Origin: Cytophagales bacterium
GTDB taxonomy: Bacteria; Bacteroidota; Bacteroidia; Cytophagales; Cyclobacteriaceae
Length of the DNA stretch: 64,000 bases
Direction of reading: 5' to 3'
Assembly (NCBI GenBank): GCA_020402945.1
Contig: JADBYQ010000024.1
Location: 1-64,000, forward strand
Below, piece by piece: positions 35,979 to 56,879 of this stretch; the first letter of the stretch is position 1, and the number at the start of each line of letters is the position of its first letter. Under the pieces are notes generated by a model. That model did no database searches, had not been told where the DNA came from, and saw only the letters and a program-made list of their open reading frames with translations. The translations under genes and the position numbers were made by a program.

Positions 35979-35986
35979 CAAAACTA
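35979..35986 (-). promoter_or_regulatory. Possible -7 box for the DUF4160/DUF2442 pair
   Basis: The minus strand reads TAGTTTTG (TAnnTTTG) 10 bases upstream of the DUF4160 ATG and overlaps the GH65 stop codon. No TTG is seen at the normal -33 distance, so this may be chance. Confidence 0.25.
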
Positions 35987-38011
35987 CTTCACTGAAAAAC
36001 TGACTTTCGTCACCCCTACCCCTTTAATCTCCAATGATTTCCAGGTCTTTGGCAGTTTGGTTTTTATTTGCGTGATGCCTGCATCAGAAATGGTTAATCC
36101 ACCAAATCCATTCATGACGGCCTGTAAAAATCCGCCTGCTCCGGTCGCAAAATAAGGATTAGTACCACCAGCTGTTTCCGATAAAACACCAAATGGTGGC
36201 ACCTCGTTTGGTTTGTACGATTTCGCAAACAGCTCCGTTGCCTTCTCCAGATTCCCGATGCGAGAATAGATAGCAGATAAAGCTGAATGCCCCATTGCAG
36301 GTCCTTCGGGTGAGTAGCGCGGTTCATAGTACTTCAGATCCTTTTCGATCTGGGCTTTGTCCGAAATGAAGTCTAAGGGAAATGCCAACAAGTTTACGTC
36401 TCCTTGCTTGATAGTTACACCATCATAAGTTGCATTTTCCTTTGTCGTACCATCGGGAAATTTCAAGATCGGTATATTCTGCGCGACCACTTCCCAATCC
36501 GGATTTGGTGCAAGGCCCATCTCCTTGGCTGCTTGGGTCGCATACCGAAGTACAGTAATAGCCATGCCATTGGTGAACGCATTGTTGTCAATATTTTCTT
36601 GCCATTCGTTTGCACCAATTACATTGTTGATCTCAAATTTCCCTGGACCTTTCCTCTCTACACGGCTGGCCCAAAAATCAGCTACTTCTTTTAGCACAGG
36701 ATAACCACGTTCTTTCAACCACGTTTTATCTTTGGTTACCTGATAGTATTTCCAAAACGCCCAACCCACGCAGCCAGTAATGTGGTGTTGAAATGGTCCA
36801 GTAAGAGCCCACACTGGAGTATCCTCGGTGCCTTCAGACGATGACTCCCAAGGGAACATTGCGCCTTTGTAACCATGCGAAAATGCATTCTGCTTCGCAG
36901 CTGCCAGGCGATTGTAGCGATACTCTAAAATTGATTTGGCAATCTCTGGTTGCAGCATAAGGATAGGTGGATACATCCACAACTCCGTATCCCAAAACAC
37001 ATGACCATTATAACCCAAACCAGAAAGACCCATAGGCGAAAGGCTCAAGCCCGTCCCCTCCCTGGCGAACGAGTAGAGATGGTATAGTGCAAATCGAACA
37101 TCTTTTTGAGTTTGCAAATCACCCTCAATTACAATATCGCTCTTCCACAACTTTTCCCATTCTGCCACGTGGCGTTGGAGCAATCGTTCCGTTCCTTCCA
37201 ATCGCGCGAAAATGGTGAGCCGTTCCGCTTCATTTAGCGGATCTTGAAAGTTGGCCGTGGAAGTTGCTGACGATACAACGCTAAATGAATAGCTCTCTCC
37301 CGTTTTCAAACTCTTGTTGAATTTCGCGAGATGCATACTGTAATCCCAATCTTCATGAATGAGATCAGGTTCTTGTCCATGGGACTCCGAAAAAATAATG
37401 CTATTGCTAGCCGCAACTGTGTGCTTACCAGAGGGGCTTTTTCCTACTGAAGATAACAAGGGCAACTTCACATGAGGCCGATCTATTTCGCTATAGGTAT
37501 TGCGCACATCAGCCAAATGATTAGGGGCTTCAATGACACTCATCGGTGTCACCTTCACATCCTTCTTCGCTTTGAGCTCTACGATCGACATCGCTGTATA
37601 GGGCAAGTGACGAAGCGCCATCATCGAGTGCTTCACTGATAATTTATCACCCACATCAAAGGTTGTAACCAAAATCGCCTTCTTCATATCCAGTGTTTGG
37701 CGGTAGTTTGTAATATCTTTTATTCCTATTCGTCTACCATCAACATCCAAATTCATATTGGCATGGTTAAACGTTTTGAGGATATTAGAAACACGCCCAC
37801 GTTGATAGTAGTCGTAGACACCATTCAATACCACGTCTCTCACTTTCATGGGTTCAGGCGAAGAGACCAAACCGACCATGCCATTGGCTACAGTCACTCC
37901 GTAATAACTGTTTGGGTCAATGGCTTTGGCTTCGATGAGCCACGGGTCGCTTTGCTGAGAAAAAACTTCAACTCCGCACAGAATTAAGATCAACGTGAGC
38001 AAATGCTTCAT
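35984..38011 (-). CDS. GH65-family glycoside hydrolase, exported (kojibiose/trehalose-hydrolase type)
   Basis: A 675-residue exported protein with signal MKHLLTLILILCGVEVFSQQ. An N-terminal beta-sandwich (to ~residue 260) precedes an (alpha/alpha)6 barrel. The GH65 general acid is E469 in GANEWQENIDNNAFTN. A second candidate carboxylate, E612 in VLSETAGG, lies where Bacteroidota GH65 hydrolases place their general base. Most bacterial GH65 enzymes are cytosolic phosphorylases; export and this Glu argue for a hydrolase, as in the kojibiose hydrolase described from Flavobacterium johnsoniae. Substrate (alpha-1,2-glucosides or trehalose) is inference. Its ATG overlaps the preceding CRTAC1 stop (ATGA), so it is coupled to that gene. 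Confidence 0.88.
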   Translation of the reverse strand: MKHLLTLILILCGVEVFSQQSDPWLIEAKAIDPNSYYGVTVANGMVGLVSSPEPMKVRDVVLNGVYDYYQRGRVSNILKTFNHANMNLDVDGRRIGIKDITNYRQTLDMKKAILVTTFDVGDKLSVKHSMMALRHLPYTAMSIVELKAKKDVKVTPMSVIEAPNHLADVRNTYSEIDRPHVKLPLLSSVGKSPSGKHTVAASNSIIFSESHGQEPDLIHEDWDYSMHLAKFNKSLKTGESYSFSVVSSATSTANFQDPLNEAERLTIFARLEGTERLLQRHVAEWEKLWKSDIVIEGDLQTQKDVRFALYHLYSFAREGTGLSLSPMGLSGLGYNGHVFWDTELWMYPPILMLQPEIAKSILEYRYNRLAAAKQNAFSHGYKGAMFPWESSSEGTEDTPVWALTGPFQHHITGCVGWAFWKYYQVTKDKTWLKERGYPVLKEVADFWASRVERKGPGKFEINNVIGANEWQENIDNNAFTNGMAITVLRYATQAAKEMGLAPNPDWEVVAQNIPILKFPDGTTKENATYDGVTIKQGDVNLLAFPLDFISDKAQIEKDLKYYEPRYSPEGPAMGHSALSAIYSRIGNLEKATELFAKSYKPNEVPPFGVLSETAGGTNPYFATGAGGFLQAVMNGFGGLTISDAGITQIKTKLPKTWKSLEIKGVGVTKVSFSVK

Positions 38012-41000
38012 TGTGATACTATTTTAAATCCTACGATGGACTGATCATTCCTTGAAACTAAGATAATTTTCTCATTTTTGAAATTACTGAGTACCTGAAT
38101 ATGCCGTGTTTCTCCCTTCACCACAAATCCGGATTCTTGCGCGTCCACAGGCTTCCAGTTACCCATTCCGTCACCCAGCATAATCAGACCGATACTCGCA
38201 TCATACCTACCAAAATCGGGCTGCACCGCATCTAAATTTCCGCCTAGGAGCAAGTCGTTGAAGCCATCCTTGTTAACATCTTCCATGGCGATCGCATAAA
38301 CTGGAGCGAGTTGTGCTTCGGCTGGCAAATTCACTAGGGTTAATTTGCCTTTATCATTTCTTAGATAGGATGAACTGAGCGTTTCCACCTGCATGCGCGC
38401 TGAGTTTCCCTTTTGTTGGGGAGTGACAATGTCTTCCAGATTTACATTGCGGTAATCTTGGTAACGAAGGAATTTCCTTTTCAAACCTGGAAGCTGCTTT
38501 ATCAACTGATCGCGCGAGGCAAACGGGTAACTTTTGTCTCCATTGTAGTAAACCAAAATATGGTCTGACCCACCGTTGCTATCAAAGTCACCTAAGTACA
38601 AGGATAAAGGCTGTTCGGTAGAAACTTTTAATCGGGAGTTCTGACCTAAGTTGCCAAGCACATAATCGTCATCTCCATCATTGTCGAAATCAGATGCCTC
38701 GATTGCGTTCCACAAGCCGCTAGTAAAAGTAAGGCCAAACTGTTCGGTCTGGTTTTCAAATTGATGATTCTGATTTTGGATTAAAGCGGTAATGGGCATC
38801 CACTCCCCCACTAAAATCAAGTCAACACGGCCATCCTTATTCACATCCGTCCAGGCAGCATCCTTCACTAAGCCTGGTCGTATTTGCGTTGGATTATTAA
38901 ACCGGCTATTGCCAAGCCAATTCGGCACATCCGAAAAATCACCTTTACCGTCATTTCGCAATAAATAGCTTTGGGGAGCCATTCCGTACAAAAAAGGTAT
39001 TACACTTGCCCCGATAAAAACATCTGTATCTCCGTCTCCATCATAATCAAATGGCTTGATACATGATGCATTCAAAATTATTCTTGGAATTGAATTATTG
39101 TCTCGTTGAAAATTTCCGCGTCCATCGTTTTTGTAAAGTCTAGGTCGCAAAGCCTCCGGTTTGTTGCTTGGGTCTTGCCCACCAGCCGCTACCAATAAAT
39201 CCAAATCATGATCACCGTCTACATCGATAAACTCGGCTGCTATGTCCTCGGTAAACGAATCAGAAAAAAAGTCTTTATTGCGTTTCTCAATCCACCCACC
39301 TTGCTTTGTTTGAATAAAAATTGAAGCAGACTGATCTTTGCCACCGCCTACAAAAATATCTGTTAAGGCATCCCCATCCACATCACCTTGGGCTAACGGT
39401 GGTCCCTGGGTCGTTAGCATGTGGGGTATCAAGCCTTCGTTGTTGAACGAATTGTAATCATCTTCTTGGTGAACAAAATTTGGGACTGATGATTTCGGTA
39501 GCGGCTCAACCATCCGCTTACTTGGCAGCAGGCGCTGATAATCAAATCTTTCTTTTGCGTCTGACTGTTTTGCGGAGATAGTCTTACCTGCCTCAACACT
39601 ATTCAATTTCTGGAAAGTTCCTTTCGGCCAAACAATAAGAATTGAATCAGCTTTGACAGAATTTCCTAAACCAACAATTATTCTCGTATCGGAAGAAGAA
39701 CTAAATCCACGTGTAGCCGAAACTTCGCAGGATTGAAAGTCAGTACCTGTGTAAGTTAAAACTTTAGCTCCTATGCCGAATGAATTTGGTTTACTTCCAA
39801 TTAAACTGATTCTTATGCTTTGCGATCGGGTATTATTTTGATATACGAAAGCCGGTTGATTGATGTTATTTACGACCACATCCAAATCTCCATCATTGTC
39901 CAAATCAGCGTACGCGCTTCCATTTGAAAAAGACGGAGTGTTGACTCCCCACTCCGTTGAAACGTCCTTAAAATGAATACCATCTACATTTTTAAAAACA
40001 AAGTTAGAAACCTTGCCATCCGGCATTGTATTCAAGATATTCAAGTCGGATGATTCGATGGTTTGAAGCGAATCTTGAATCGCTTGATTAGAAATGAAGT
40101 TGATATAGTCGAGGTCATTAGGCCTACGAACGATACCATTCGAAACAAATAAGTCTTTCAGTCCATCGTTGTCAAAATCTGCCATCAAAGGAGACCAACT
40201 CCAATCGGTAGCTTCCACTCCCGCCAAAGGCGCGACATCACTAAAAGTAAGCAATGAGTCTGTGATGTACCGATTGAGTTGAAGGCAATTACGAGCTACT
40301 TGATAATGGTATCCGAATTTTAATTTGTATTTGTAAACTTCGTATGCATCCTCACCCGCAGAAGTTTTAATTACTGATTCATCCCTTGGTAGCATATCCG
40401 TTGTAATGATATCAGGCCGCCCATCGTTATTGATGTCCGATATATCATTGCCCATGGAAAAGCGGCTTGAGTGAGCCAATGATTTTTCAAGAATCTGTTT
40501 AAACGTTCCATCTTTCTGGTTGATATACAAATAATCGTTTTCCTGAAAATCGTTCGATACGTAGATATCAGGATATCCGTCAAGATTAACATCTGAAACA
40601 CCTACACCTAAGCCATACCCCAATCGACTGCTCAATATTCCAGCCTCACTGGTGACGTTTACAAACTTGATCAATCCAGTATTTCTTCCGTTGCTTAGCA
40701 ATTCGTTTCTAAAAAGCTGATCACCACTCAGCGAATCAGACCTCACCCGGTTGGATATCGAAACATATGAGCTTGCACTATGTACAGAATGATTGAGCAA
40801 ATAACAATCTAAATCACCATCTAAATCATAGTCAAAAAAAATAGTTTGGGTTGAAAATCCTTTAAACTTCAACCCAAACTCCTCCGTTTTATCGGAAAAA
40901 GTTAAATCACCATTGTTGATCAGCAACTGGTTTTGAGAATTGAAACTTTTGTAATTGCCCACTCCACAAACATAGATATCCAAGAAGCCATCTCCGTTGA

Positions 41001-41367
41001 CATCGGCCATAGTAACTCCCGTCTTCCAATTCCCAATTCCCTTTGCGCCCGATTTTTCGGTAATATCTTCAAACCTAAAACCACCTTTATTGAGATAGAG
41101 CCTATTTGAATACTGATTAGAAGAAAAATAAATATCCAATAGCCCGTCATTGTTGATATCGCCACAGGCAACGCCACCCCCATTGTAAAAATAGAGATAC
41201 TCGATAATGTTGAAACTCTTGTCCTCGGTCAGTTGATTGGTAAACTTAATACCTGTCTCTGTCGGTTGCTTTAATAAAAACAACGGAGATGACTTTTTCT
41301 CATCTTTACATTGTAAAAATAAAAGGGCAGCGAACAAGCTAGCACATCGTACCCACTGTTTATTCAT
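38008..41367 (-). CDS. CRTAC1-type VCBS/ASPIC-UnbV lipoprotein (paralogue A)
   Basis: A 1119-residue lipoprotein (ALLFLQC, Cys20). Residues ~30-505 contain many FG-GAP/VCBS calcium-loop repeats (DVNGDGFLDIYV, DYDLDGDLDCYL, DLDNDGDLDVVV), expected to form a beta-propeller. An ASPIC/UnbV domain follows at ~515-590 (IGAKVLTYTGTDFQSCEVSATRGFSSSSDTRI). A second propeller runs to ~1100. The protein is predicted to be on the cell surface or periplasmic face. It overlaps paralogue B's stop by eight bases and the GH65 start by four, so it is part of a tightly coupled string. Function is unknown; glycan binding or a SusCD accessory role is inference. Automatic labels such as RNA-binding protein have no support here. 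Confidence 0.88.
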   Translation of the reverse strand: MNKQWVRCASLFAALLFLQCKDEKKSSPLFLLKQPTETGIKFTNQLTEDKSFNIIEYLYFYNGGGVACGDINNDGLLDIYFSSNQYSNRLYLNKGGFRFEDITEKSGAKGIGNWKTGVTMADVNGDGFLDIYVCGVGNYKSFNSQNQLLINNGDLTFSDKTEEFGLKFKGFSTQTIFFDYDLDGDLDCYLLNHSVHSASSYVSISNRVRSDSLSGDQLFRNELLSNGRNTGLIKFVNVTSEAGILSSRLGYGLGVGVSDVNLDGYPDIYVSNDFQENDYLYINQKDGTFKQILEKSLAHSSRFSMGNDISDINNDGRPDIITTDMLPRDESVIKTSAGEDAYEVYKYKLKFGYHYQVARNCLQLNRYITDSLLTFSDVAPLAGVEATDWSWSPLMADFDNDGLKDLFVSNGIVRRPNDLDYINFISNQAIQDSLQTIESSDLNILNTMPDGKVSNFVFKNVDGIHFKDVSTEWGVNTPSFSNGSAYADLDNDGDLDVVVNNINQPAFVYQNNTRSQSIRISLIGSKPNSFGIGAKVLTYTGTDFQSCEVSATRGFSSSSDTRIIVGLGNSVKADSILIVWPKGTFQKLNSVEAGKTISAKQSDAKERFDYQRLLPSKRMVEPLPKSSVPNFVHQEDDYNSFNNEGLIPHMLTTQGPPLAQGDVDGDALTDIFVGGGKDQSASIFIQTKQGGWIEKRNKDFFSDSFTEDIAAEFIDVDGDHDLDLLVAAGGQDPSNKPEALRPRLYKNDGRGNFQRDNNSIPRIILNASCIKPFDYDGDGDTDVFIGASVIPFLYGMAPQSYLLRNDGKGDFSDVPNWLGNSRFNNPTQIRPGLVKDAAWTDVNKDGRVDLILVGEWMPITALIQNQNHQFENQTEQFGLTFTSGLWNAIEASDFDNDGDDDYVLGNLGQNSRLKVSTEQPLSLYLGDFDSNGGSDHILVYYNGDKSYPFASRDQLIKQLPGLKRKFLRYQDYRNVNLEDIVTPQQKGNSARMQVETLSSSYLRNDKGKLTLVNLPAEAQLAPVYAIAMEDVNKDGFNDLLLGGNLDAVQPDFGRYDASIGLIMLGDGMGNWKPVDAQESGFVVKGETRHIQVLSNFKNEKIILVSRNDQSIVGFKIVSQ

Positions 41368-44300
41368 TCACTTTCAGGAAAATAGGTGTGTCATTGTTAC
41401 GTGCAACCAGAATTAAGTTATTCTTTCCTACTTTAATTCGCTTGATGTCGCGAACCTCACCATCAATCATCAATCCGCAATCTTTGTTAGGTACTACTTT
41501 AAATTTTCCTTTCCCATCACCCTTTAGAAATGTTCCGTAGCTTGCGTCATAACGCCCTGCTTCAGGTTTGACTCTATACAAGTTACCCCCCATCAAAATA
41601 TCTTTATTACCATCTTTGTCAATATCTTCAATATGAACGGCATAAACAGGGGAGATCTGCGCTTCTATTGGAAGTGCCTCAAGTGTGAAGTTTCCATTTC
41701 CCTGATTGAACATGATACTTGTCGAAAAATTAAATGCATCTAACCGTTGGGCTGCTTTTAATTGTTCGGGACCAAAAATTTCAGAAATTGTTGCGTTCTT
41801 ATAATCTTCATACTTTAGAAACTTCTTTTTTAATGAAGGTATTTGAGAAAGAAGGTCATGACGGAGTACCATGGGGTAACTTTTATTTCCAATAAAAGTT
41901 GTAATGATTTGTTCCATCATTCCGTTTTGATCAAAGTCACTTACCCACATTGTTACAGGTTTGTCAATACTAGCTCTGAACCGTGAATTCCAACCATGGT
42001 TACCGATTACAAAATCGAGATCTCCATCATTGTCAAGGTCTGCTGACGCAATCGTATTCCACCATCCGTTAGAGTTGATCAAGGGTATTGACCTTTCTAA
42101 CTTTCCGTGGTTATTGATATACACACTAACTGGCATCCACTCACCCACAATAACAAGGTCATCATCGCGATCTGAATCAACGTCTGCCCAAATGGCGCTG
42201 GTTATCATTCCAATGTTTTCTATAATCTGGGCAATAGCAAAAAAACCTTTGCCATCGTTCTTTAGCAGGTAGCCATTGACGGGCATACCATAACTGAATG
42301 GTGCTAACCTTACACCAACAAATAGATCTTGATCGCCATCGGAATCAACATCAGATGCAACAACGCAAGAAGTGCTCTCAAATTTACCAGATGGGAGACT
42401 TTGCTCTGATTTGATCAACCCACCTTTACCATCGTTAAAATAAAGTCGATCTAAAAAAGCCGAAGAGCTTGGCGAGAATTCGTTGCCTCCGCTGCACACA
42501 TAAAGATCTTGGTCACCATCGGCATCAGCATCAAAGAAAATACTACCTGTGTCTTCTGAGGTTCTTTCATTCAAAAAATGATCAATCTTTTTAACAAAAC
42601 TTCCACTCTGCTGCTGTAGGTATATTGCACTTATTTGATCTTTTGCACCACCTATAAAAAAGTCGTTCAATCCATCTCCATTTACATCTGCAACAGAAAC
42701 TTTGGGGCCCTCGGTACTCAGCATATGATAGATTAGTCGATCGCGATCAAAATCTACAAAATCGTTCTCTACATGCTTCTCGATAGCGGGAATAACAAAA
42801 CCCTTTGAGAAAATCTTCTTTATTGTACCATCGTTTGAACGCTTAGCCAAAGCAACTCCTTCTGGCTCTTGTAACTTTAACGTTTGATTCGTGGCAACAT
42901 TCGTCAAAGTTGTTTTCACTCCCGAGGGCCACTCTACCAAGACTTCATCTACGTTATCGACCTGTCCAACACCCAAATTGGGTCTTGGATCTACCGAAGA
43001 TTCAAAACCACGATTAGGCAAGTGCTCTAAATAATAGGCCATCTCTCCAATTTTTGCAGTAATTTTTGTCCCGATAGCACTTGAATTTGACCCTAGGCCG
43101 TGCAGCTCGAACTTTAAATATCTATTGTTTCGATTTAGGATATTGCTTTCGTTGCGAAGGATCGAAGCCTGTTCATTTACACGATTAATAACTAGATCCA
43201 TGTCTCCATCATTGTCAAGATCAGCGTACGCGCTTCCATTCGAAAAATTTAACTCATCAAGCCCCCAGGCAACTGTCATATTTTCAAATCGCAATGAACC
43301 CAAATTACGAAAAGCAAAATCCGAAACAGGTGTTGAAGGAATCAATTCAACCAGTTTTTTGTAGTCGACTTGATTATTAGACACAATCGACTTGACAACC
43401 TCTCCACTTGAGACATACTGAAGGTAATCTTGATTAGTGAGATCCTGGTAAATTCCGTTGGCAACAAAAACATCCTTGAGTCCATCGTTGTCCATGTCGA
43501 AAATTAACGCACCCCAACTCCATTCTGTTGCCTCCATTCCTGTCAATCTTCCTATTTCACTAAACGAATTATTGCCATTGTTTAGTTGTAGCATGTTGCG
43601 CGTAAACTGGTGGTAAAAATCGTTGTTCAAATTGTTTTGATATCGATCCCAGTTTTCGAAAGTAGTTACTGTCTTTAATCGTTGGTTTGACTCTGGCAAC
43701 ATCTCGGTAACGAAAATATCCGGATAAGCGTCATTGTTAACATCTGCCAAATCCGCACCCATGGAAGCTCCACTGACCGATTTCATTTGTTCTGTGAGGC
43801 ACTCACGAAAACTGCCGTCTTGTTTGTTGATATACAGATAATCTCGCTCGAAAAAATCGTTTGATACATAGATATCCAACCATCCATCCTTGTTTATATC
43901 CCCTACTGACGCCCCTAAGCCAAATCCGATAACGCTTCCATAAATACCAGCTTGCTCACTAACGTCAATGAAATGTCCATTTTCATTACGCATTAACTTA
44001 TCGCCACCCAACAAGTCGCGTTTAGGACGTTCATTCTTTTGAAGATTAAAACTTCCTATTGCCCTATAAGAGTTATTCAAAATATAAACATCGAGATCAT
44101 TGTCTCTGTCATAGTCGAAAAAAATCGCATGGGTTGTAAAGCCTTTGTCAGCCAACCCATACTCTTTTGCCCGTTCGGTAAATGTCAAATCTCCATTGTT
44201 GATAAACAGCTCATTTTCCTTATTATCACCCTTTACATCACCCGAATTGCAAATATAAATATCTAGCCAACCGTCACCGTTTACGTCAGCCATACTTACA

Positions 44301-44683
44301 CCTGTTGACCATGACTTGCTTCCACCCACACCTGCTGTGCGCGTAATGTCTTCAAACTTAAAATTACCTTTGTTAATGAAAAGCTTGTTAGGTGCCTGAT
44401 TTGCAACTAAGTACACATCAATTAGTCCATCGTTATTGACATCTCCAATTCCGACCCCTCCTCCATTGTAAAAATTTCGGTAGGTATAAATATTGAATTC
44501 CTGACTAAATGCCAATTTGTTAGAAAAGGAAATGCCGGTGGAATCTGGACTTAAGGCAGAAAAAAGCTTCCGAACCGGCTTTTCGGCTGGCTCGCAACAA
44601 GAAACTGAAAACAGCACAATAGAAAATAATGCTAGCCTCCAGCATTGTTGCTCAAATGCAAATCTAGCTTTACTTATCTTCAC
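41360..44683 (-). CDS. CRTAC1-type VCBS/ASPIC-UnbV lipoprotein (paralogue B)
   Basis: 1107 residues with the same layout as paralogue A: lipoprotein signal (IVLFSVSC), the N-terminal motif TGISFSNKL...YRNFYNGGGVGIGDVNNDGL, a propeller with DVNGDGWLDIYI-type loops, an ASPIC/UnbV domain at ~535-600 (IGTKITAKIGEMAYYLEHLPNRGFESS), and a second propeller. The start codon is GTG and there is no in-frame ATG before the signal peptide. The first 14 bases overlap the end of the small lipoprotein gene. Order and overlaps imply joint translation. Confidence 0.87.
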   Translation of the reverse strand: MKISKARFAFEQQCWRLALFSIVLFSVSCCEPAEKPVRKLFSALSPDSTGISFSNKLAFSQEFNIYTYRNFYNGGGVGIGDVNNDGLIDVYLVANQAPNKLFINKGNFKFEDITRTAGVGGSKSWSTGVSMADVNGDGWLDIYICNSGDVKGDNKENELFINNGDLTFTERAKEYGLADKGFTTHAIFFDYDRDNDLDVYILNNSYRAIGSFNLQKNERPKRDLLGGDKLMRNENGHFIDVSEQAGIYGSVIGFGLGASVGDINKDGWLDIYVSNDFFERDYLYINKQDGSFRECLTEQMKSVSGASMGADLADVNNDAYPDIFVTEMLPESNQRLKTVTTFENWDRYQNNLNNDFYHQFTRNMLQLNNGNNSFSEIGRLTGMEATEWSWGALIFDMDNDGLKDVFVANGIYQDLTNQDYLQYVSSGEVVKSIVSNNQVDYKKLVELIPSTPVSDFAFRNLGSLRFENMTVAWGLDELNFSNGSAYADLDNDGDMDLVINRVNEQASILRNESNILNRNNRYLKFELHGLGSNSSAIGTKITAKIGEMAYYLEHLPNRGFESSVDPRPNLGVGQVDNVDEVLVEWPSGVKTTLTNVATNQTLKLQEPEGVALAKRSNDGTIKKIFSKGFVIPAIEKHVENDFVDFDRDRLIYHMLSTEGPKVSVADVNGDGLNDFFIGGAKDQISAIYLQQQSGSFVKKIDHFLNERTSEDTGSIFFDADADGDQDLYVCSGGNEFSPSSSAFLDRLYFNDGKGGLIKSEQSLPSGKFESTSCVVASDVDSDGDQDLFVGVRLAPFSYGMPVNGYLLKNDGKGFFAIAQIIENIGMITSAIWADVDSDRDDDLVIVGEWMPVSVYINNHGKLERSIPLINSNGWWNTIASADLDNDGDLDFVIGNHGWNSRFRASIDKPVTMWVSDFDQNGMMEQIITTFIGNKSYPMVLRHDLLSQIPSLKKKFLKYEDYKNATISEIFGPEQLKAAQRLDAFNFSTSIMFNQGNGNFTLEALPIEAQISPVYAVHIEDIDKDGNKDILMGGNLYRVKPEAGRYDASYGTFLKGDGKGKFKVVPNKDCGLMIDGEVRDIKRIKVGKNNLILVARNNDTPIFLKVNE

Positions 44684-45278
44684 TCCTACTAGCGTGCTTA
44701 AATACTGGATTCAGAATATCCTGAACTTCAACTGATACACTCTTCATATCCCATGTGTAAACGAGTATTCTTCTATTTCCATCCAATTTAACAGGCATCT
44801 GCTTACCTCCTACGTTTGCTAAAATAAAGTTGTTCCCACCATACCAATTCATGAGTATTTTCTCGGTTTTACCAAGCAGTGAATCTGATTGCATATCCCT
44901 GTTCCAGGGAGCCCATGCCCTATAACTAAATTGCATCTTCATATTTATGATTTTGTCGTTTTGATCAAACGAAGGATAAAAGAGCAAGCTTATGTTGGTC
45001 GGATTACGATGAAACAATGAATCAGAAAAAACATATTCCACATTGTTCCCCGCCCCCGCAGTTACCAACTGCTGCTTGTTTAAATCAAAACATTTTCCAT
45101 AAAATTCATTTCGAGTGTCTCCGAATCGAATTCCGAAAAGAAGTGAATCATTTCTAACCCCTTTGGCCAATTCTGCCTTTACTAATCGTGTATACTCCGA
45201 CTGAAAACAGCCTGACAACGTCACACAAATTGACAGATAACTAATGCTGTACTTCAAAAACTTCCAGTTTGCTCCCAT
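44670..45278 (-). CDS. Small lipoprotein with WAPWN motif, unknown family
   Basis: About 202 residues. The lipoprotein signal is ISYLSICVTLSGC. The mature part has SLLFGIRFGDTRNEFYGKCFDLNK, a beta-rich centre (NISLLFYPSF, IINMKMQFSYRAWAPWN), ILMNWYGGNNF and LDGNRRILVYTWD. I do not recognise a named domain. The position between two 1107-residue CRTAC1 genes, overlapping both (38 bases upstream, 14 downstream), makes it likely that it belongs to the same complex. The start is the ATG of MGANWKF; the frame itself opens with TTG three codons earlier. A TTG at 45257 would give an even more compact signal peptide. Confidence 0.75.
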   Translation of the reverse strand: MGANWKFLKYSISYLSICVTLSGCFQSEYTRLVKAELAKGVRNDSLLFGIRFGDTRNEFYGKCFDLNKQQLVTAGAGNNVEYVFSDSLFHRNPTNISLLFYPSFDQNDKIINMKMQFSYRAWAPWNRDMQSDSLLGKTEKILMNWYGGNNFILANVGGKQMPVKLDGNRRILVYTWDMKSVSVEVQDILNPVFKHASRSEDK

Positions 45279-48200
45279 ATTTTGCAAAAAAAATATATTT
45301 TATTCCTTCGCGTTCAATATACTCTATTCCTCTAATTTCGCCTTCAACTCCTAAGTCAATACCTTTATCAAATTCAAAAATTCCTTTTTTCAGCTTACCA
45401 AGAAACAGCCAACCACCTGACGCGCTATTTGGACCAAATTGTGGTTTTACATTATCTTGGTTTCCACCCGCAATTAAATCAATTACCCCGTCATTGTTAA
45501 CATCAACAAGCCGCATGGCGTAAACGGAAGAAAACTGAGCTTCCTTTGGCAACGGAACTTTTTTGTAATCGCTATGATCTGAAATTAAGAGCACCGATCG
45601 AAGTTCATTTACTTGATAGATAATAGATTTTTCTAGTATCTCCCTTGGAAAAAGATCAGTCATTGATTTCGTGGCATAATCTCTATAATACAAAAGCTGC
45701 TTCTTTAGTCCCGGCAGCTGAGACAATAACTCATCTTTATCCAACAACGGGTAGTACCTACCGTTGAGTTCTGTGCAGAATATTTGCTCAATAGATCCAT
45801 TTTGATCAAAATCATTAACGTACATCCTGTCTTTGCTACGAAAAAATGAATTCAATCCATTGTTTCCAACAACAAAATCCACTTTCCCATCTTTGTTCAA
45901 ATCCCCTGATTCAATCTCATGCCACCAGCCTTCCGAGTCAATAAGCCCGAATAATTCTTTGTCATTTACAAAGTGTCCTTTTACATTTTTGAGAAAGATG
46001 ATGGGCATCCAGTCACCAACTACCATTAGGTCTTGCCACCCGTCATGATCTACATCCTGAACCTCGATGTCAGTAATCATTCCGAGTTTGTTAAGATCAG
46101 GGGCATAAAACATCGTTACGTCCTTAAACCTTCCCATACCGTCATTTTGAAACAAGAAGCCTCGCCCCCCCACCCCGTAGCTAAACGGGTCAAAACGTTC
46201 TCCAATACAGAGATCCAAATCTCCGTCATTGTCAAAATCAATGGGCTTCACTACACTGGTAGAGGTGAATTCTGAAAATGGTAATCGATTCGGTGAAACC
46301 GAAAACTTCCCAAATCCGTCATTGAGCAGGACAACATCCAACAAATTGGTTGAACTTTTTGGATAGGAACGCCCTCCAAAAGCAAGATAAAGATCAATAT
46401 CACCATCTTTATCGGCATCAAAGAAGGTGCCTTTGGTTTCTTCAGAACCGACAAACGACTCCATGATTGGCATGTCTTGTGCTACGATTTTACCAGCCTT
46501 GAAATCCAAGAAAATACCAGATTGCCCCTTCCCTCCACCAATATACAATTCATCCTTTCCATCTCTATTGATGTCACCTTTTAGAACAGAGGGCATTTCA
46601 TTGGAATACATCATCGGTAGCAAACGATCTCTGTCAAAGTCGTTTAGCCCGTTCGTAGCATGGGTGAACTGAACCAACTCAATACTTCTTAATAGTGGCG
46701 AACTCGGGCTACCTGATTTAGGAAAATCCAAAACTCTCAGACTGTCTTTTTGAATTCGAATTACTTGGTTTGGTTTAACGTTCACAAGCTTCGAATACCC
46801 TCTAGTTGGCCATGAAAAAACTACTGAATCAATCAAAGTAACGTTTTCACCCAACCCAATGACCACTCTGTTTGACACACAGCTCTGGTAGCCGCGCACC
46901 ACGAAGTTATCGGACAGAAAAACCCTTGAACCCACATACGCTTTCACGTGCGTCCCTGTGCTAAATGTATTATCTGATTGAGAGGTAATCAAAAAACTAA
47001 TATTCTTAAACCGGGATGTATCCGTTTGGTTCTGAAACACGCCTGATGGCGCATTGACATTATTGACAACCAGATCCAGATCACCATCATTATCCAGGTC
47101 GCCATAAGCACTTCCACTTGAATACATGGGTTCACCTAGACCCCACCCGCTAGCTTTATTTTCAAACTGAAGATTACCTTTGTTTTCAAAAGCATAATTC
47201 GGAAATTTTGATGATGGCATAGAATTGACCAGCTTAATAATTGCCTTCTTTTCTTGTTGGATCAGTGCGCGAACATTTTCGTCAGATCCTGTGTAGGTCA
47301 AATAGTCTCGGTCTAATAGGTCTTTATAGATGCCATTAGCTACAAAAATATCTCGTTTGCCATCACTGTCCATATCAAAGAGCAAGGCTCCCCAACTCCA
47401 CTCCGAAGCGGCAACGCCCCCGTATCGCCCCACTTCTAAATAGCGCCCAGGGCTGATTTGCTTTTGAAGGACGTTCCTCGCAAACTGGTGGTGATATCCC
47501 TGTTGCAGATTGAATTGATATTTATTCCAAGACTCAAAGACTATCTTTGATTTCCTTCTCGCCAAGGAATCTGGAAGCATCTCAGTAACAAAGAGATCCG
47601 CCAAACCATCATTATCCAAGTCGGCAAAATCAGCCCCCATAGAACCCATGCTAATAGACTTAAAATACGTTGGCAGTGATTCGGTAAACGCTCCTTTTTG
47701 ATTATTGATATATAAGTAGTCCCGTTCAAAAAAATCATTAGAAATAAAAACATCAATCCAAGTATCATTATTAAAATCTCCCAAGGTGATGCCTAAACCG
47801 AAGCCGATACTACTGCGGTAGATTCCCGACTGTAGTGAGTGGTCTTTAAAATACCCCCCCTCATTTATAAAAAATCTATTTCCTCCACCCATTTCATCTG
47901 GCACTTGGCGCTGTTCTTTCACCAATTCAAAATTTCCAACGGGTTTAAATGAATTAGTTAATAAATAACAATCCAGGTCACCATCTTTATCATAATCGAA
48001 GAAAGCTGCTTGCACAGATAACCCAATTATATCTAATCCGTATTCTTTGGCGCTTTCGGTAAAGGTGAGATTGTGATTATTGATAAATAGTGCATTGTGT
48101 CTGTTGGAAGAATTGGGATCTCCAGATTTACAAACATAAATATCCAAATATCCATCGGCATTGACATCAGCAAAAACAACACCCGTTGACCAAGAACCAC

Positions 48201-48516
48201 CACAACCAACGCCTGCCGAGGAGGTGATATCCTCAAATTGAAACCCACCCTTGTTTTTAAACAATTTGTTTTCCCCTTGGTTGGAAGCAAAATAAACGTC
48301 TTCCAAACCATCATTGTTAAGGTCGCCAATAGCTACACCTGCGCCATTATAGAAATTACGATATGTATAAGGATTAAGTTGCTCGGTATATACAAGCGAA
48401 TTATTGAATGTAATTCCACTTTTACCAACAAGATTTTTAAAAAGCTCAGTAGGCGGTTTCTCCCGATCGCTACAAGCCGCCAGCAAAGCAGAAAAGATCA
48501 AAAAATAGTACCTCAT
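45241..48516 (-). CDS. CRTAC1-type VCBS/ASPIC-UnbV lipoprotein (paralogue C)
   Basis: About 1091 residues from the chosen ATG, which gives MRYYFLIFSALLAAC, a clean lipoprotein signal. Architecture as in paralogues A and B: TGITFNNSL-like motif, YRNFYNGAGVAIGDLNNDGL, first propeller, ASPIC/UnbV at ~520-585 (STGTHVKAYVGSRVFLSDNFVVRGYQSCVSNRV), second propeller. An upstream in-frame ATG at 48561 would place a perfect terminator hairpin inside the coding region, so the later ATG is preferred. The hairpin's T-tract ends about five bases before this start, so no promoter can lie between them. Confidence 0.87.
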   Translation of the reverse strand: MRYYFLIFSALLAACSDREKPPTELFKNLVGKSGITFNNSLVYTEQLNPYTYRNFYNGAGVAIGDLNNDGLEDVYFASNQGENKLFKNKGGFQFEDITSSAGVGCGGSWSTGVVFADVNADGYLDIYVCKSGDPNSSNRHNALFINNHNLTFTESAKEYGLDIIGLSVQAAFFDYDKDGDLDCYLLTNSFKPVGNFELVKEQRQVPDEMGGGNRFFINEGGYFKDHSLQSGIYRSSIGFGLGITLGDFNNDTWIDVFISNDFFERDYLYINNQKGAFTESLPTYFKSISMGSMGADFADLDNDGLADLFVTEMLPDSLARRKSKIVFESWNKYQFNLQQGYHHQFARNVLQKQISPGRYLEVGRYGGVAASEWSWGALLFDMDSDGKRDIFVANGIYKDLLDRDYLTYTGSDENVRALIQQEKKAIIKLVNSMPSSKFPNYAFENKGNLQFENKASGWGLGEPMYSSGSAYGDLDNDGDLDLVVNNVNAPSGVFQNQTDTSRFKNISFLITSQSDNTFSTGTHVKAYVGSRVFLSDNFVVRGYQSCVSNRVVIGLGENVTLIDSVVFSWPTRGYSKLVNVKPNQVIRIQKDSLRVLDFPKSGSPSSPLLRSIELVQFTHATNGLNDFDRDRLLPMMYSNEMPSVLKGDINRDGKDELYIGGGKGQSGIFLDFKAGKIVAQDMPIMESFVGSEETKGTFFDADKDGDIDLYLAFGGRSYPKSSTNLLDVVLLNDGFGKFSVSPNRLPFSEFTSTSVVKPIDFDNDGDLDLCIGERFDPFSYGVGGRGFLFQNDGMGRFKDVTMFYAPDLNKLGMITDIEVQDVDHDGWQDLMVVGDWMPIIFLKNVKGHFVNDKELFGLIDSEGWWHEIESGDLNKDGKVDFVVGNNGLNSFFRSKDRMYVNDFDQNGSIEQIFCTELNGRYYPLLDKDELLSQLPGLKKQLLYYRDYATKSMTDLFPREILEKSIIYQVNELRSVLLISDHSDYKKVPLPKEAQFSSVYAMRLVDVNNDGVIDLIAGGNQDNVKPQFGPNSASGGWLFLGKLKKGIFEFDKGIDLGVEGEIRGIEYIEREGIKYIFFAKYGSKLEVFEVQH

Positions 48517-48520
48517 TGGA

Positions 48521-48556
48521 TCAAAAAAATAGCGCCTAACAAAGTTAGGCGCTATT
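48521..48556 (-). terminator. Strong intrinsic terminator/attenuator between SusD and CRTAC1-C
   Basis: AATAGCGCCTAAC and GTTAGGCGCTATT are perfect 13-bp inverted arms (48528-48540, 48544-48556) around a 3-base loop. On the minus strand the stem is followed by seven consecutive Ts. It starts 26 bases after the SusD stop and ends just before the next gene's ATG. The stem, loop and T-tract are textbook for Rho-independent termination of the SusCD transcript. Confidence 0.85.
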
Positions 48557-48581
48557 AACATCAAATTTTAATCTCTTTCTA

Positions 48582-50129
48582 TTATTGGTAACCCGGATTT
48601 TGAGTAAGCTTATTTACCCCATCTCCAGAAGTCGCATTGATTTGCTCGATAGGTATAGGCATTAAATTTTTAAAAGCATCTGAGTGTGCAGGCTTTTCCC
48701 ACCAAGCATTACCCCAAGCGCCAAAACGTATCAAATCTGTTCTTCTCAAACTTTCAATAAATAACTCACGACCACGCTCTGCCAAAAGAGTGCCGGCTGT
48801 AAGGCTACTAAAAGCTGGAACTCCTGCACGTGTTCTTATTTGATTTACCAACGTCAAGGCTGTTGCATCACCATATCCATTTTTCCTTGCGAGCGCCTCT
48901 GCCTTATTCAGCAACACTTCCGCGTATCGCAAAAGAGGATAGTCATTATCCATATTCTGAAATTGCCCTAGTTTAAATGAAAACTTACCGAGACGTGCAC
49001 CAGCCTGACGAGACCCATTTGGGGACAACATGTTAATCTTGGGAGTATAATTAATTGCAGCCCCGTCTTCATCGCCTTTATCAAATGCCAAGTCCAAAAT
49101 TGGGCTTCCATTCGCATCAAACTGTGGTCCCACAATAAAGTTATTCGCCTTCCTTTCATCTGCCGTTTCGTACGAATTGTAAAACTCTTCCAATGTGGAG
49201 TAACCATTCCACGGTTGCTCAGCTAGCTTAAAAGTGAGCTGACTTGGGTAATGAAGTGTCATCTGGGCTAAATTCATACCTTGGCCAGTGGCTTCATCGA
49301 AGGGAGCCACAAAAATATGTTCTGGGTTTTCAACATTTGAAGGTGAAAATACATCTTTATACTTAACCCCGGTTATAGTATAAAGCCCTGAATTGATAAC
49401 CGCATCAGCCGCAGCAATTGCTTTGTCATAATCAGCGTTGTCTGGAGCCGTTCCTTTATAAATGTTCGCATTCAAATACAAGCGAGACAAAAGCGCATTG
49501 GCTCCACTTTTGTTGAAACGACCATATTCCTGTTTGCCAGACGGAAGGTCTGGTAAAGCCGCAAGTAATTCTGACTCCACGAATGCATATACAACAGGAC
49601 GCTCTGATTGGGGGAATTTTGCTGTTGAAGTGGCTAAGGGCACTCTTCCAAAAACATCCAACAACCTCCAGAAGAAATAAGCTCTCAGAGTCCGCAGTTG
49701 AGCGACATTTCCAGCTGTCTGAGTTTTTGACAACAAATCGTTACACTGAAAAATACCCGCGTTCGCATCAGTCCAAGCATTATTTATTCCACCAACAGTA
49801 GAACTAAAGGTATGCTTGTGCATATTTAGCCAAATGCCACCATCAAACCAGTCACCGCCTTTTTGGGTAATTACTGCCTCATCGGTAGATACTTCTTGCA
49901 CCGAAAAGTAGCTGTTATGGCCAGCCGTTCCATTCAATACGCGTGTAAATGCAGCACCCAGACCATCATTTGGACTCGGCTTGTTAACGTTGTTCTTCTC
50001 ACCAACACCTTTGTTGAGCGGAACTCCGGGCTTGGTAAAATCACCCTTGATCTCCTCATCCAGGTTGGTACATGCTGCACCACCCAGTAGAAGGGACGTA
50101 ACCAGACAATATTTTACTAAGTTTTTCAT
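48582..50129 (-). CDS. SusD/RagB-family nutrient-binding lipoprotein
   Basis: A 515-residue surface lipoprotein (LLLGGAAC, Cys20) that caps its SusC partner and captures glycan. The TPR-helical SusD fold is supported by the N-terminal ACTNLDEEI, the RAYFFWRLLDVFGRVPL helix near residue 155, and the C-terminal family signatures LRYAEVLLNKAEALAR and LLAERGRELFIESLRRTDLIRFG. It is encoded 30 bases after its SusC gene. The glycan is unknown; the nearby GH65 suggests alpha-glucosides. A terminator follows. Confidence 0.96.
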   Translation of the reverse strand: MKNLVKYCLVTSLLLGGAACTNLDEEIKGDFTKPGVPLNKGVGEKNNVNKPSPNDGLGAAFTRVLNGTAGHNSYFSVQEVSTDEAVITQKGGDWFDGGIWLNMHKHTFSSTVGGINNAWTDANAGIFQCNDLLSKTQTAGNVAQLRTLRAYFFWRLLDVFGRVPLATSTAKFPQSERPVVYAFVESELLAALPDLPSGKQEYGRFNKSGANALLSRLYLNANIYKGTAPDNADYDKAIAAADAVINSGLYTITGVKYKDVFSPSNVENPEHIFVAPFDEATGQGMNLAQMTLHYPSQLTFKLAEQPWNGYSTLEEFYNSYETADERKANNFIVGPQFDANGSPILDLAFDKGDEDGAAINYTPKINMLSPNGSRQAGARLGKFSFKLGQFQNMDNDYPLLRYAEVLLNKAEALARKNGYGDATALTLVNQIRTRAGVPAFSSLTAGTLLAERGRELFIESLRRTDLIRFGAWGNAWWEKPAHSDAFKNLMPIPIEQINATSGDGVNKLTQNPGYQ

Positions 50130-50159
50130 ATTTTTTATCTTTTCAATTAAAATAAACTA

Positions 50160-53126
50160 TTAAAGACCAAACGTTAGACCAAATGTAAATGTTCTGGGGG
50201 TAAAGAAACTATTTCTTCTGTCAATTCCAGGAGACAATACATCTTGCTCAGCAACTGGAGGAGCAAATCCACCATTGTCAAATGCTCCTGGATCTTGTAA
50301 CACCGGCTCAGGATCAACACCAGTATAGCTGGTAATAACGAACGCATTTTGAACGCTGGCATAAAGCCTTATGTTTTTGAACGTCCCGTTAGGGTTACTG
50401 CGTTTTACAGTATACCCCAATGTAGCGTTATCCAACTTGAAGAAATCAGCTTTCTCCACATACAATGAGCTAAACTTTGCCTCTGTTAATCCAGCTACCG
50501 CTTTGCTGGTAATCACGCGATTATATGAATTGATCGCGCCTGCGTCCAACGGTTCATAAAAACCTCTGAAGCTATTTACCAGACTATGGCCAAAGGCTGA
50601 ACGGAAAAACACGTTCAAATCCCAATTTTTGTACGATAGCTGGTTTCTCCAGCCTATTTCCATTGTTGGTATACCACTTCCTAATTTCCTGTAGTCACCG
50701 TTTGCCAGCAATGCAGAACCCGGCTCAGCCAAAATAGTTCCGTCTCCGTTCAGGTCAGCAAATCTAACAGTTCCATCAGGATTTGCCCCCGCAAAAACAG
50801 GACCCCATATTTGGCCAATCTCTTCGCCAACACCCACCCGAATCACTGGCGTACTGTTTTGTCCTGGTGCGCCAAAATTAGACCTTACTTGCACGGGTGC
50901 TCCCACGAAAGACTCAAGCGTAGACTTATAACTACTTAACACCAGACCCGGAGTCCATCTAACTTGGCCAAATTGTAGGGCATCATAATTCAAATTGAAT
51001 TCAAACCCTGTGGTGTTCAAAGAACCTGCATTCCTAAACTGGAAATTTGCCCCCACCTCTGCAAAGACAGCAGGTACTCTTTGTATGAAATCTTTAATGT
51101 CGCGAGAATATACATCAACAGAACCCGTGAACTTACCTCCGATACTAAAGTCCAAACCGAAATTGGTCTCTCTCTTCTCTTCCCATCGCAAATTTGCATT
51201 TGCTGCTCTATCTGGGCCAATCGACCCGCCAAGTTGGTTATTATACAAATAAAGTCCCTGAGACAAACCAGCATCGGTAGGTATAGACCCAGTAACGCCA
51301 TAACCTACCCTCAATTTCAGATTATCAATTTTCTTGATCTGCAAATACCTGTTTAAATCTACTCCTAAACCAAAAGCAGGGAACAAGCCATACCTGTTAT
51401 TTGCTCCAAACCTCGTAGAACCCTCATTTCGAACAGAAGCATTGAAGAATATCGCCTTGTCGTAGGTAAGACTGACTCTCGCAAATTGCGCAATAATCTT
51501 ATTTGTTGGAGATGCACTACTTTGTATGTTAATGTTGTTAGCACCAGTGATGCCTGAAAGCAAGTCACCAGACTGCTCTAGCGCATTGTAGCCAAGTAAA
51601 TCACTTGGAAAATTGCCCAAGGAAATGAAGATATCCTCAAAATTGTCCTGTTGATAAGAATAACCTGCATTAGCACTTAAGTCAATCTTTCCAAACTGCT
51701 TTGTATAAGTCGCATAAGCCTCAAATAAGGTAGCACTTCTGTCAGAAGTATATCTTCTCGCCAAGCCACCTCTGTTCAAACCTCTAAACAAAGAATTTCT
51801 TGAATAGTACTCACCATTCAACTGGTTTTCATACTGCTGACCATAGTTAACAGTAAACGTTAGGTCATTGGTTATACTATAATCGATTTTTGCGTTGTAG
51901 TTTAGATTCCTCCGCTTACCCTCATTGATATTTTGTTCCAAAATAGCGACCGGATTAAAATTATCAAAAAGGATGGCTTGAAAAAACTCTCCATTGGCGA
52001 ACCTTTTAGGGGCTGTTGGATTGTAGACTGAAGCGTAACGCAGTGCCTCAGAAAACGAAAAATTACTATTTCGATTAGTGAAGGACATATTTACATCAAT
52101 TTTTAACTTATCATTCAACGCAGAATGAGTAAGATTTGCCCGGGCATTGATTTGATCAAAGCCCTGCTTCTTCAAAATACCTTGAACCTCCCTGATGTTA
52201 GTTGATAACCGGAAAGTGGTATTTTGGTTGCCCCCAGAAATACCTAAGTTATGTACTTGGGTAATGCCTGTTCTCGTTACCTCTTTTTGCCAATCTGTGT
52301 TTCCACCCAAATTGTTACCACCCGCAGCAATGAATTGGCTTGCAGACATTACCGGAACTCGGGTCAATACTTCGGCAGCAGCCACATAACCATTGTATGT
52401 AACGGACAAACCACCACCTTTTGAGGATCCTCGTTTTGTTGTAACAAGAATAACACCGCTTGATCCTCGGCTACCATAAATAGCTGCGGCAGAACCATCC
52501 TTTAGTACGTTGATTGACTCGATATCGCTAGGGTCAACGTTATCCAGAGACGCGCCCAATACACCATCAATAACAACTAAAGGCTGAACGTTCGCACCTA
52601 TCGTAGAAATACCACGGAGTCGAATTACCGCACTAGCGTTTGGGTCGCCACCACGGTTATAAATACTTAAGCCCGCTACCTTGCCTTGCAATAACTGTGT
52701 AGGGTCGTTAACGTTACCTTGGTTAAAATCCTTTGGAGACAATGCAACAACCGAACTTGTAATCTCCTTTTTATCTTGTGTTCCATAACCTACAACCACC
52801 ACCTCAGATAAGGAAGTGATATCAGATTTTAAAGAAACGTCCAAAGAGGTTTGAGACCCCACAGCTACTTCCTGCGTTGCGTATCCCACAAACGAGAAAA
52901 CAAGTGTGGCGTTGGCACCTACGCTGATGGTAAAGCTACCATCTGCATCCGTTACCGTACCATTAGTGGTTCCTTTTTCTAGGATGTTTACTCCTGGAAT
53001 TCCCGAGCCATCGTCAGATGACTTTACTTTACCTGACACGGAACGCTCCTGTGCGAAACCCACCAGGGTTGCGAACATCAGAACCACCGCGAGATACCTG
53101 CGAACAAACAGATACAATTTGGTCAT
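50160..53126 (-). CDS. SusC/RagA-family TonB-linked outer-membrane transporter
   Basis: A 988-residue TonB-dependent glycan importer. The signal peptide ends near TLVGFAQE. A carboxypeptidase-D regulatory-like domain is at ~28-100 (VSGKVKSSDDGSGIPGVNILEKGT). The SusC-type TonB-box region LSEVVVVGYGTQ is followed by the plug (LLQGKVAGLSIYNRGGDPNAS ... SAAAIYGSRGSSGVILVTTKRG) and the barrel, ending in the expected aromatic-rich FTFGLTFGL. There is no STN domain, so there is no direct anti-sigma coupling. It is first in the second PUL; a palindrome of LacI-operator type is 117 bases upstream. Confidence 0.97.
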   Translation of the reverse strand: MTKLYLFVRRYLAVVLMFATLVGFAQERSVSGKVKSSDDGSGIPGVNILEKGTTNGTVTDADGSFTISVGANATLVFSFVGYATQEVAVGSQTSLDVSLKSDITSLSEVVVVGYGTQDKKEITSSVVALSPKDFNQGNVNDPTQLLQGKVAGLSIYNRGGDPNASAVIRLRGISTIGANVQPLVVIDGVLGASLDNVDPSDIESINVLKDGSAAAIYGSRGSSGVILVTTKRGSSKGGGLSVTYNGYVAAAEVLTRVPVMSASQFIAAGGNNLGGNTDWQKEVTRTGITQVHNLGISGGNQNTTFRLSTNIREVQGILKKQGFDQINARANLTHSALNDKLKIDVNMSFTNRNSNFSFSEALRYASVYNPTAPKRFANGEFFQAILFDNFNPVAILEQNINEGKRRNLNYNAKIDYSITNDLTFTVNYGQQYENQLNGEYYSRNSLFRGLNRGGLARRYTSDRSATLFEAYATYTKQFGKIDLSANAGYSYQQDNFEDIFISLGNFPSDLLGYNALEQSGDLLSGITGANNINIQSSASPTNKIIAQFARVSLTYDKAIFFNASVRNEGSTRFGANNRYGLFPAFGLGVDLNRYLQIKKIDNLKLRVGYGVTGSIPTDAGLSQGLYLYNNQLGGSIGPDRAANANLRWEEKRETNFGLDFSIGGKFTGSVDVYSRDIKDFIQRVPAVFAEVGANFQFRNAGSLNTTGFEFNLNYDALQFGQVRWTPGLVLSSYKSTLESFVGAPVQVRSNFGAPGQNSTPVIRVGVGEEIGQIWGPVFAGANPDGTVRFADLNGDGTILAEPGSALLANGDYRKLGSGIPTMEIGWRNQLSYKNWDLNVFFRSAFGHSLVNSFRGFYEPLDAGAINSYNRVITSKAVAGLTEAKFSSLYVEKADFFKLDNATLGYTVKRSNPNGTFKNIRLYASVQNAFVITSYTGVDPEPVLQDPGAFDNGGFAPPVAEQDVLSPGIDRRNSFFTPRTFTFGLTFGL

Positions 53127-56753: not shown

Positions 56754-56879
56754 AAAGTCAAAACGAGCTAACAAATTTAGTAGCACAGAAAAGATGCGAT
56801 TACACAAAAGTAATAAAAGTCGTGTCAGCGCAAGGAACTCGATCAATGGCCTCTCAAACAAACTTCAACCCCTACTCAA

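Follow-up and report, generated by a model that had tools for sequence, protein, structure and literature searches.

Polysaccharide utilisation loci (PULs) of the SusCD type, such as the starch Sus system and FjDexUL of Flavobacterium johnsoniae, combine a SusC-SusD pair with surface lipoproteins. A second point of reference is an enzyme of Zobellia galactanivorans, for which we use the name iodoperoxidase as in PMC5064120; that paper also reports that iodine uptake by Arenibacter C-21 requires glucose, oxygen and calcium, and proposes a haloperoxidase for it. In this study we analysed a window of 64,000 nucleotides from a Cytophagales bacterium (assembly GCA_020402945.1, contig JADBYQ010000024.1, positions 1 to 64,000) that shares with these PULs the SusC-SusD pair, surface lipoproteins and, here, a GH65 enzyme of the FjGH65A type. 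Three long CRTAC1-type proteins (C, B and A in order of transcription), a small lipoprotein termed WAP between C and B, and a vanadium haloperoxidase-type gene, VIPO, complete the set. These genes are one copy of a conserved cassette of the outer membrane, proposed here to be a surface SusCD sugar importer bearing the VIPO haloperoxidase, a reading that stands an even chance of being correct. Our confidence that the cassette is a functional unit is fairly high, that in the peroxide and halide chemistry predicted for VIPO is moderate, and that in any purpose for the whole is low. The case for a conserved cassette is drawn from gene order, position-specific CRTAC1 clades, the linkage of VIPO, its intact vanadate-site residues and lipobox-like protein starts.

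A search of named genomes gave 266 stretches with a WAP relative, and 80 of them, representing 79 loci, were kept; neighbourhoods were read for 138 WAP loci (59 + 79), and pooling by identical WAP sequence left 124. CRTAC1 adjoins WAP in 120 of these 124 distinct loci, and SusC/SusD lies upstream in 96 of the 97 with at least 7 kb of upstream sequence, the single miss being L062. The exact order SusC-SusD-C-WAP-B-A-VIPO is present in 49 of the 86 distinct loci in which both flanks are long, and shortened forms, SusC-SusD-WAP-A, also occur. Among the 82 full triplets, taken as longest open reading frames (ORFs), neighbouring genes overlap or lie at most 30 bases apart in 75 cases for C-WAP, 81 for WAP-B and 73 for B-A. 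Carriers are titled Cytophagales, Flavobacteriaceae, Saprospiraceae and others, one of them (L098) being a groundwater metagenome-assembled genome (MAG), and the gene order, which recurs in loci of those three named groups, is far beyond chance. As a separate observation, the SusC, CRTAC1 and VIPO frames of the L068 cassette are all in pieces, through either decay or poor sequencing.

Within the window (Table 1) the string that an earlier note had described from SusC to GH65 proved to be real. SusC, SusD, the three CRTAC1 proteins of about 1,110 residues with PF07593 and FG-GAP matches, WAP and GH65 were all found on the minus strand, and the overlaps of 38, 14, 8 and 4 bases from C onwards (C-WAP, WAP-B, B-A and A-GH65) were reproduced. 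The interval assigned to it, 35984..53126, ends one partner too early, leaving out VIPO, and two overlapping small ORFs (35385-35968), likewise outside that interval, separate GH65 from VIPO. The DhiT-like one was probably inserted; the GH65-VIPO gap holds no same-strand ORF of more than 90 amino acids in L096, L098, L099, L126 or L138. The longest ORF of CRTAC1-C begins with TTG, and its real start is possibly further in. A TIGR04056 SusC adjoining a PF07980 SusD places the locus among SusCD-type PULs. The window's own genome has five PF07593 matches, four of them in the window, and three SusD (PF07980) matches, of which two are in the window. As the same note had proposed, a fourth CRTAC1 paralogue, with PF07593 above its cut-off, closes the adjoining starch operon, where it is preceded by a starch-type set of a GH13-like protein and SusE/F proteins. 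The Pfam scan covered 20 window proteins, at 22-62 kb.

Table 1. Cassette genes and adjoining features, in window positions.
Feature	Position	Strand	Evidence and remarks
SusC-type TonB-dependent transporter	50160..53126	-	988 aa; first cassette gene; TIGR04056 635.8 bits (cut-off 368.25); Plug and barrel Pfam domains
SusD-type lipoprotein	48582..50129	-	515 aa; PF07980 7.2e-24, PF14322 1.9e-11
CRTAC1 paralogue C	45241..48564	-	PF07593 36.8 bits (cut-off 23.4), FG-GAP_3; clade C by tree and HMM
WAP lipoprotein	44670..45278	-	ATG start (longest ORF to 45287); about 200 residues; WAPWN motif; Pfam/NCBIfam: none
CRTAC1 paralogue B	41360..44683	-	PF07593 61.4 bits; clade B by tree and HMM
CRTAC1 paralogue A	38008..41367	-	PF07593 57.5 bits; clade A by tree and HMM
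GH65, predicted kojibiose (alpha-1,2-glucoside) hydrolase	35984..38011	-	Signal-peptide-like start; NF053734 1118.7 bits (cut-off 800)
Small ORF, weakly DhiT-like (toxin of toxin-antitoxin pair)	35657..35968	-	NF048015 E 4.3e-4, 20.8 bits (cut-off 100)
Small ORF, very weakly DhiA-like	35385..35729	-	NF048016 E 0.047, 14.1 bits (cut-off 200)
VIPO, vanadium haloperoxidase-type lipoprotein	34059..35378	-	PDB 4cit/4usz E 4.6e-148; 52% identity; vanadate signature intact
Fourth CRTAC1 paralogue	53319..56861	-	PF07593 76.5 bits; end of neighbouring starch operon, outside cassette

Each of the three CRTAC1 proteins combines a PF07593 match above the curated cut-off with FG-GAP repeats, as is characteristic of the CRTAC1/ASPIC-UnbV type. 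In a tree of 167 such proteins, made up of 40 of the 82 full triplets and 47 others, every position formed a clade of its own: C with 40 of 40 (support 1.0), B with 40 of 40 (support 0.84), and A with 40 together with five CRTAC1 proteins of WAP-free loci (support 0.925). The window's C protein was assigned to clade C by a hidden Markov model (HMM) margin of 325 bits, and the fourth paralogue best fits a model outside A, B and C, by 190 bits, and so belongs to another CRTAC1 group. The gene next after WAP encodes a member of clade B in 108 of 126 cases; none of 60 CRTAC1 proteins from WAP-free loci falls in that clade. Recent local duplication was considered as an origin for the paralogues and is ruled out, since every position clade has members from loci titled Cytophagales, Flavobacteriaceae and Saprospiraceae. 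The C, B and A proteins are non-interchangeable propeller lipoproteins of the cassette. The structural model of B (predicted local distance difference test, pLDDT, 88.1) has murine CRTAC1 (9etn) as its best Foldseek match (E 4.8e-25, template modelling (TM) score 0.72 on the target), and the same entry is its best profile match (E 2.9e-22); the B profile also weakly finds integrin alpha chains, at profile positions 639-778 for integrin alpha-V. FG-GAP repeat loops of the DxDxDG type bind calcium, and 10-13 such loops were counted by two patterns in each of the window's A, B and C proteins.

The association of CRTAC1 with SusCD extends beyond loci with WAP. Of 63 WAP-free PF07593 clusters 60 were fetched, and removal of nine that have no long CRTAC1 left 51 loci in 16 genomes. 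SusC lies within 4 kb in 40 of these, against about 4.3 expected; VIPO is present in 16, both SusC and VIPO in 10, and neither in five, two of which have SusC at 4.2-4.7 kb. These counts indicate that CRTAC1 accompanies SusCD, VIPO or both. The proposal that CRTAC1 proteins are partners of SusCD is therefore upheld at the genetic level by gene order, by these 40 of 51 loci and by the 96 of 97 WAP loci, and the random placement relative to SusCD that would have spoken against it does not hold.

VIPO is, as judged from its sequence, an orthologue of the Zobellia galactanivorans vanadium iodoperoxidase, and its gene recurrently closes the cassette. The vanadate site, K-x6-RP, SGH and SR-x5-H, is present in the window protein. 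In an unselected count the motifs are whole in 70 of 74 VIPOs, the other four being truncated by locus ends, and an alignment of 91 sequences shows no variation at K332, R339, S366, G367, H368, R418 and H424 (4cit chain index), partly by selection, as the 91 include the PDB chain and were chosen by length and mostly also by SR-x5-H. Of the 100 loci whose sequence reaches 8.5 kb downstream of WAP, 58 have VIPO there. Where the gap from the last CRTAC1 was measured (61 loci), the two are adjacent in 49, GH65 lies between them in four, and eight have another insert or a wider gap. Of the 148 genomes in the window's taxonomic family 105 have VIPO, which is more frequent in those with WAP (54/62) than in those without (51/86; p 2e-4), and in 174 of 397 genomes of a flavobacterial family.

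Distances between VIPO and PF07593 genes were taken in 18 genomes chosen for few contigs, 13 of which carry WAP. Among VIPO genes of at least 300 bits, 23 of 29 lie within 6 kb of PF07593, against 0.35 expected, and 13 of 19 still do so when the 10 genes in WAP cassettes are set aside; both of the two genes at 100-300 bits do likewise. None of 14 haloperoxidase/PAP2 relatives at 45-99 bits does, which rules out that every such relative accompanies CRTAC1. These distances use 45 of 54 rows, the nine omitted ones scoring below 45 bits; one of these nine, on contig 3 of genome G109 (21 bits), does sit within 6 kb of PF07593. In the 397-genome search, 18 flavobacterial VIPO loci were sampled from the upper ranking (at least 73% identity to the PDB protein), and all 18 stretches, of about 20 kb, contain CRTAC1, directly next to VIPO in 12; SusC is present in 13 and WAP in four. 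Three CRTAC1 genes directly precede the one VIPO gene that shares 99% identity with the PDB protein. Tandem VIPO pairs were also observed (G079 C29, G105 C132, G138 C22, G034 C66, G018 C77, G067 C7 and G095 C9), as were ORFs named by eye as ROK-like regulators beside CRTAC1-VIPO pairs with no SusCD in view (L195, L227 and L231).

WAP is a lipoprotein family absent from Pfam, NCBIfam and the PDB. Neither Pfam nor NCBIfam has a family for it, stray weak Pfam matches being confined to one or two members, and comparison with PDB sequences gave no match at E 10. Its structural model is of high predicted quality (mean pLDDT 92.7, predicted TM score, pTM, 0.83); Foldseek against the PDB returned nothing at E 0.001, and the TM score on the query was no higher than 0.26 among the matches listed (50 of 887). 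The lipid cysteine is invariant in an alignment of 69 sequences, and relatives occur in 62 of 148 genomes of the window's family. In some arrays (15 loci) the place of WAP is occupied by a GyrI-like (PF06445) protein of about 299 residues with a hydrophobic start, and this gene is in none of 143 fetched WAP-holding loci, duplicates included. The alternation is not a strict either-or, as in the window's family 15 of 16 VIPO loci without WAP do not have the GyrI-like gene either. G017, a genome from the same genus as the window, lacks WAP and combines the GyrI-like gene with VIPO, three CRTAC1 genes and a GH65 relative. Examples of the replacement are L256:872-1771, from a sampled Flavobacteriaceae genome, and L183:11290-12186, from a same-genus genome. 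A Bacteroidota-type promoter pattern gave two matches against 3.7 expected, none of them at the cassette, and the residues after the lipid cysteine followed no clear surface-export signal apart from that of SusD.

The following arrangement would account for such a cassette. The CRTAC1 proteins, each stiffened by some 11 calcium loops, may build a fixed scaffold on SusCD that keeps VIPO at the surface of the cell, with WAP probably at the junction of SusC-SusD and CRTAC1-B. SusCD would import a sugar or a sugar-bearing ligand under LacI-type control, and VIPO would convert hydrogen peroxide and halide, iodide best, to hypohalous acid, most likely consuming peroxide that is met or produced during feeding. 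The operon of the window, and that of a few relatives, may have gained a kojibiose hydrolase that adapts the cassette to alpha-1,2-glucosides. The glucose, oxygen and calcium requirements of Arenibacter C-21 would fit a sugar-linked, calcium-dependent complex bearing VIPO. A bolder form of the proposal, which we put forward tentatively and consider possible though not probable, is that these genes define a new class of importer, with a TonB-dependent SusCD port, a scaffold of three dedicated CRTAC1 propellers and WAP, and its own vanadium haloperoxidase, which would carry out halogen and peroxide chemistry at the importer's mouth; as its small subunit the importer would use either WAP or the GyrI-like membrane protein, and the iodine handling of marine Flavobacteriia might thereby be explained.

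Several observations weigh against the reading as a haloperoxidase-bearing importer. Of the 100 WAP loci with 8.5 kb in view, 42 have no VIPO downstream, and eight of 62 WAP genomes are without VIPO at E 1e-90. Six of the 29 strong VIPO genes lie away from CRTAC1, and in six of the 18 flavobacterial stretches CRTAC1 sits 5-13 kb from VIPO. The Zobellia-type genome has its nearest visible SusCD, which is accompanied by a LacI-like gene, about 11 kb away from the CRTAC1-VIPO array and about 21 kb from VIPO, and six loci pair CRTAC1 with VIPO without a SusC in view, so that VIPO and SusCD are separable. WAP occurs without SusCD in L062 and on contig L049/L145 (whose upstream sequence is too short to count among the 97), and three genomes of the same genus have no WAP. 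Sugar-related flanks are found in a minority of loci and are varied. PAP2-fold enzymes include phosphatases, and halide oxidation by VIPO is a predicted activity. The lipobox-like starts of the cassette proteins were judged by a simple pattern only.

The gene content around the cassette bears on its substrate. In 128 loci, made up of the 124 distinct WAP loci and four WAP-free ones, the recurrent neighbours were a divergent LacI gene (27), a major facilitator superfamily transporter weakly matching sucrose symporters (8), FGGY kinase (6), GH65 (6), GH13 (5), a gluconate-2-dehydrogenase subunit 3-like protein (5), GMC oxidoreductase (4) and xylose isomerase (3), each name being taken from one or two members of a group or from a close relative. 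Such flanks point to sugars rather than to one glycan and do not establish alpha-glucan as the general substrate. At L219:3760-6085 CRTAC1 and VIPO are separated by genes for a GMC oxidoreductase and a gluconate-2-dehydrogenase subunit 3-like protein, and this pair is a possible source of peroxide or electrons. At L040:531-3150 a 3-keto-disaccharide hydrolase and an aldo/keto reductase follow immediately downstream of the CRTAC1 array.

An alpha-glucan utilisation locus, in which CRTAC1 and WAP are surface glycan binders that supply SusCD and an exported GH65 with alpha-1,2-branched glucan, is the alternative that survives best, and it is still fairly unlikely. The window's GH65 is a predicted kojibiose hydrolase by NCBIfam equivalog, scoring above the NF053734 cut-off, matching FjGH65A (7fe3) at E 1.3e-234 and carrying E469 and E612, in an alignment read by eye, at the apparent catalytic acid/base positions; the Glu pair is named in PMC8626586. 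Its gene overlaps that of A by four bases, a starch operon adjoins the cassette, GH13 genes flank some relatives, and FjGH65A functions in a dextran PUL (PMC10316084). However, among the cassette loci read, the only ones with a GH65 of this kind after the CRTAC1 genes are the window, L096, L098, L099 (= L037), L126, L138 and the WAP-free L183, so that most cassettes read are without it and a stable complement of glycoside hydrolases for one glycan was not found. Xylose isomerase and xylulokinase are among the neighbours of other cassette loci instead, no GH66, GH31 or GH97 was among the window proteins scanned, and VIPO is left unexplained. GH65 as a core gene is ruled out by the small number of loci that have it; it is an occasional passenger, an added enzyme in a few copies. 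The earlier suggestion that the CRTAC1 proteins present an alpha-glucoside polymer to GH65 could not be sustained as a general role, given the few loci with GH65, VIPO as the recurrent last gene and the mixed sugar flanks.

Halogen capture would give VIPO the leading part: it would oxidise iodide, and SusCD and CRTAC1 would take up or retain oxidised iodine or iodinated organics, leading to iodine accumulation as in some marine Flavobacteriia. The orthology of VIPO to the Zobellia enzyme and the C-21 uptake physiology speak for this, as do the at least five PAP2 genes homologous to Zobellia iodoperoxidase in the C-21 genome (PMC5064120). We nevertheless regard it as unlikely, as the groundwater carrier indicates that carriers are not all marine and the sugar-metabolism neighbours are left unexplained. 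Quite improbable is a third possibility, that the VIPO homologue is a PAP2-type phosphatase acting on a phosphorylated ligand imported by SusCD. VIPO belongs to the same fold superfamily (PF01569), in which the vanadate and phosphate sites coincide, but it is 52% identical to a named iodoperoxidase over the chain, and the window protein retains the FISCW-E-K segment of that enzyme, which is also largely conserved among the 91 aligned sequences. A loose conserved neighbourhood, co-regulated for a surface life-style with no single machine, would suit the loci at which VIPO, SusCD or WAP lacks one of the others, but is very improbable in view of the fixed order, the gene overlaps and the position-specific CRTAC1 clades across three Bacteroidota groups.

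The cassette as a whole is apparently unnamed, and its constituent families are known except for WAP. No paper linking its genes was found in a search largely at title level, and the 2014 description of the Zobellia enzyme may cover its gene context. For haloperoxidase or iodoperoxidase together with SusD only PMC5064120 was found, which does not connect the two, and the papers found for CRTAC1 with SusC and SusD concern, by title, human subjects. The cassette is widespread in Bacteroidota, and either in full or as the haloperoxidase-CRTAC1 half it is a common feature of the families sampled. A structurally known iodoperoxidase thereby gains a genetic context, the roles of bacterial CRTAC1 proteins become testable, and an unannotated lipoprotein family is defined.

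Set beside described systems, the cassette departs from SusCD-type PULs in having CRTAC1 and WAP in place of SusE/F, in recurrently ending with a haloperoxidase gene and in having glycoside hydrolases only as an option. The window's GH65 resembles FjGH65A in its equivalog score and in the Glu at both catalytic positions of the alignment, whereas its context is unlike that of FjGH65A, the GH66 and GH31 dextranases and other enzymes of an FjDexUL-type dextran locus being missing among the proteins scanned. CRTAC1-B has the FG-GAP blades followed by an ASPIC/UnbV domain that are seen in murine CRTAC1, but it is 1,107 rather than 551 residues long, its second FG-GAP half is weakly integrin-alpha-like and its start is of the bacterial lipoprotein type. 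VIPO is closest to the Zobellia galactanivorans iodoperoxidase, with the vanadate residues kept and with a near-identical gene that also follows CRTAC1. In the Zobellia-type array, however, the GyrI-like gene replaces WAP and the array is parted from SusCD, whereas the VIPO of the window lies inside the SusCD-C-WAP-B-A operon.

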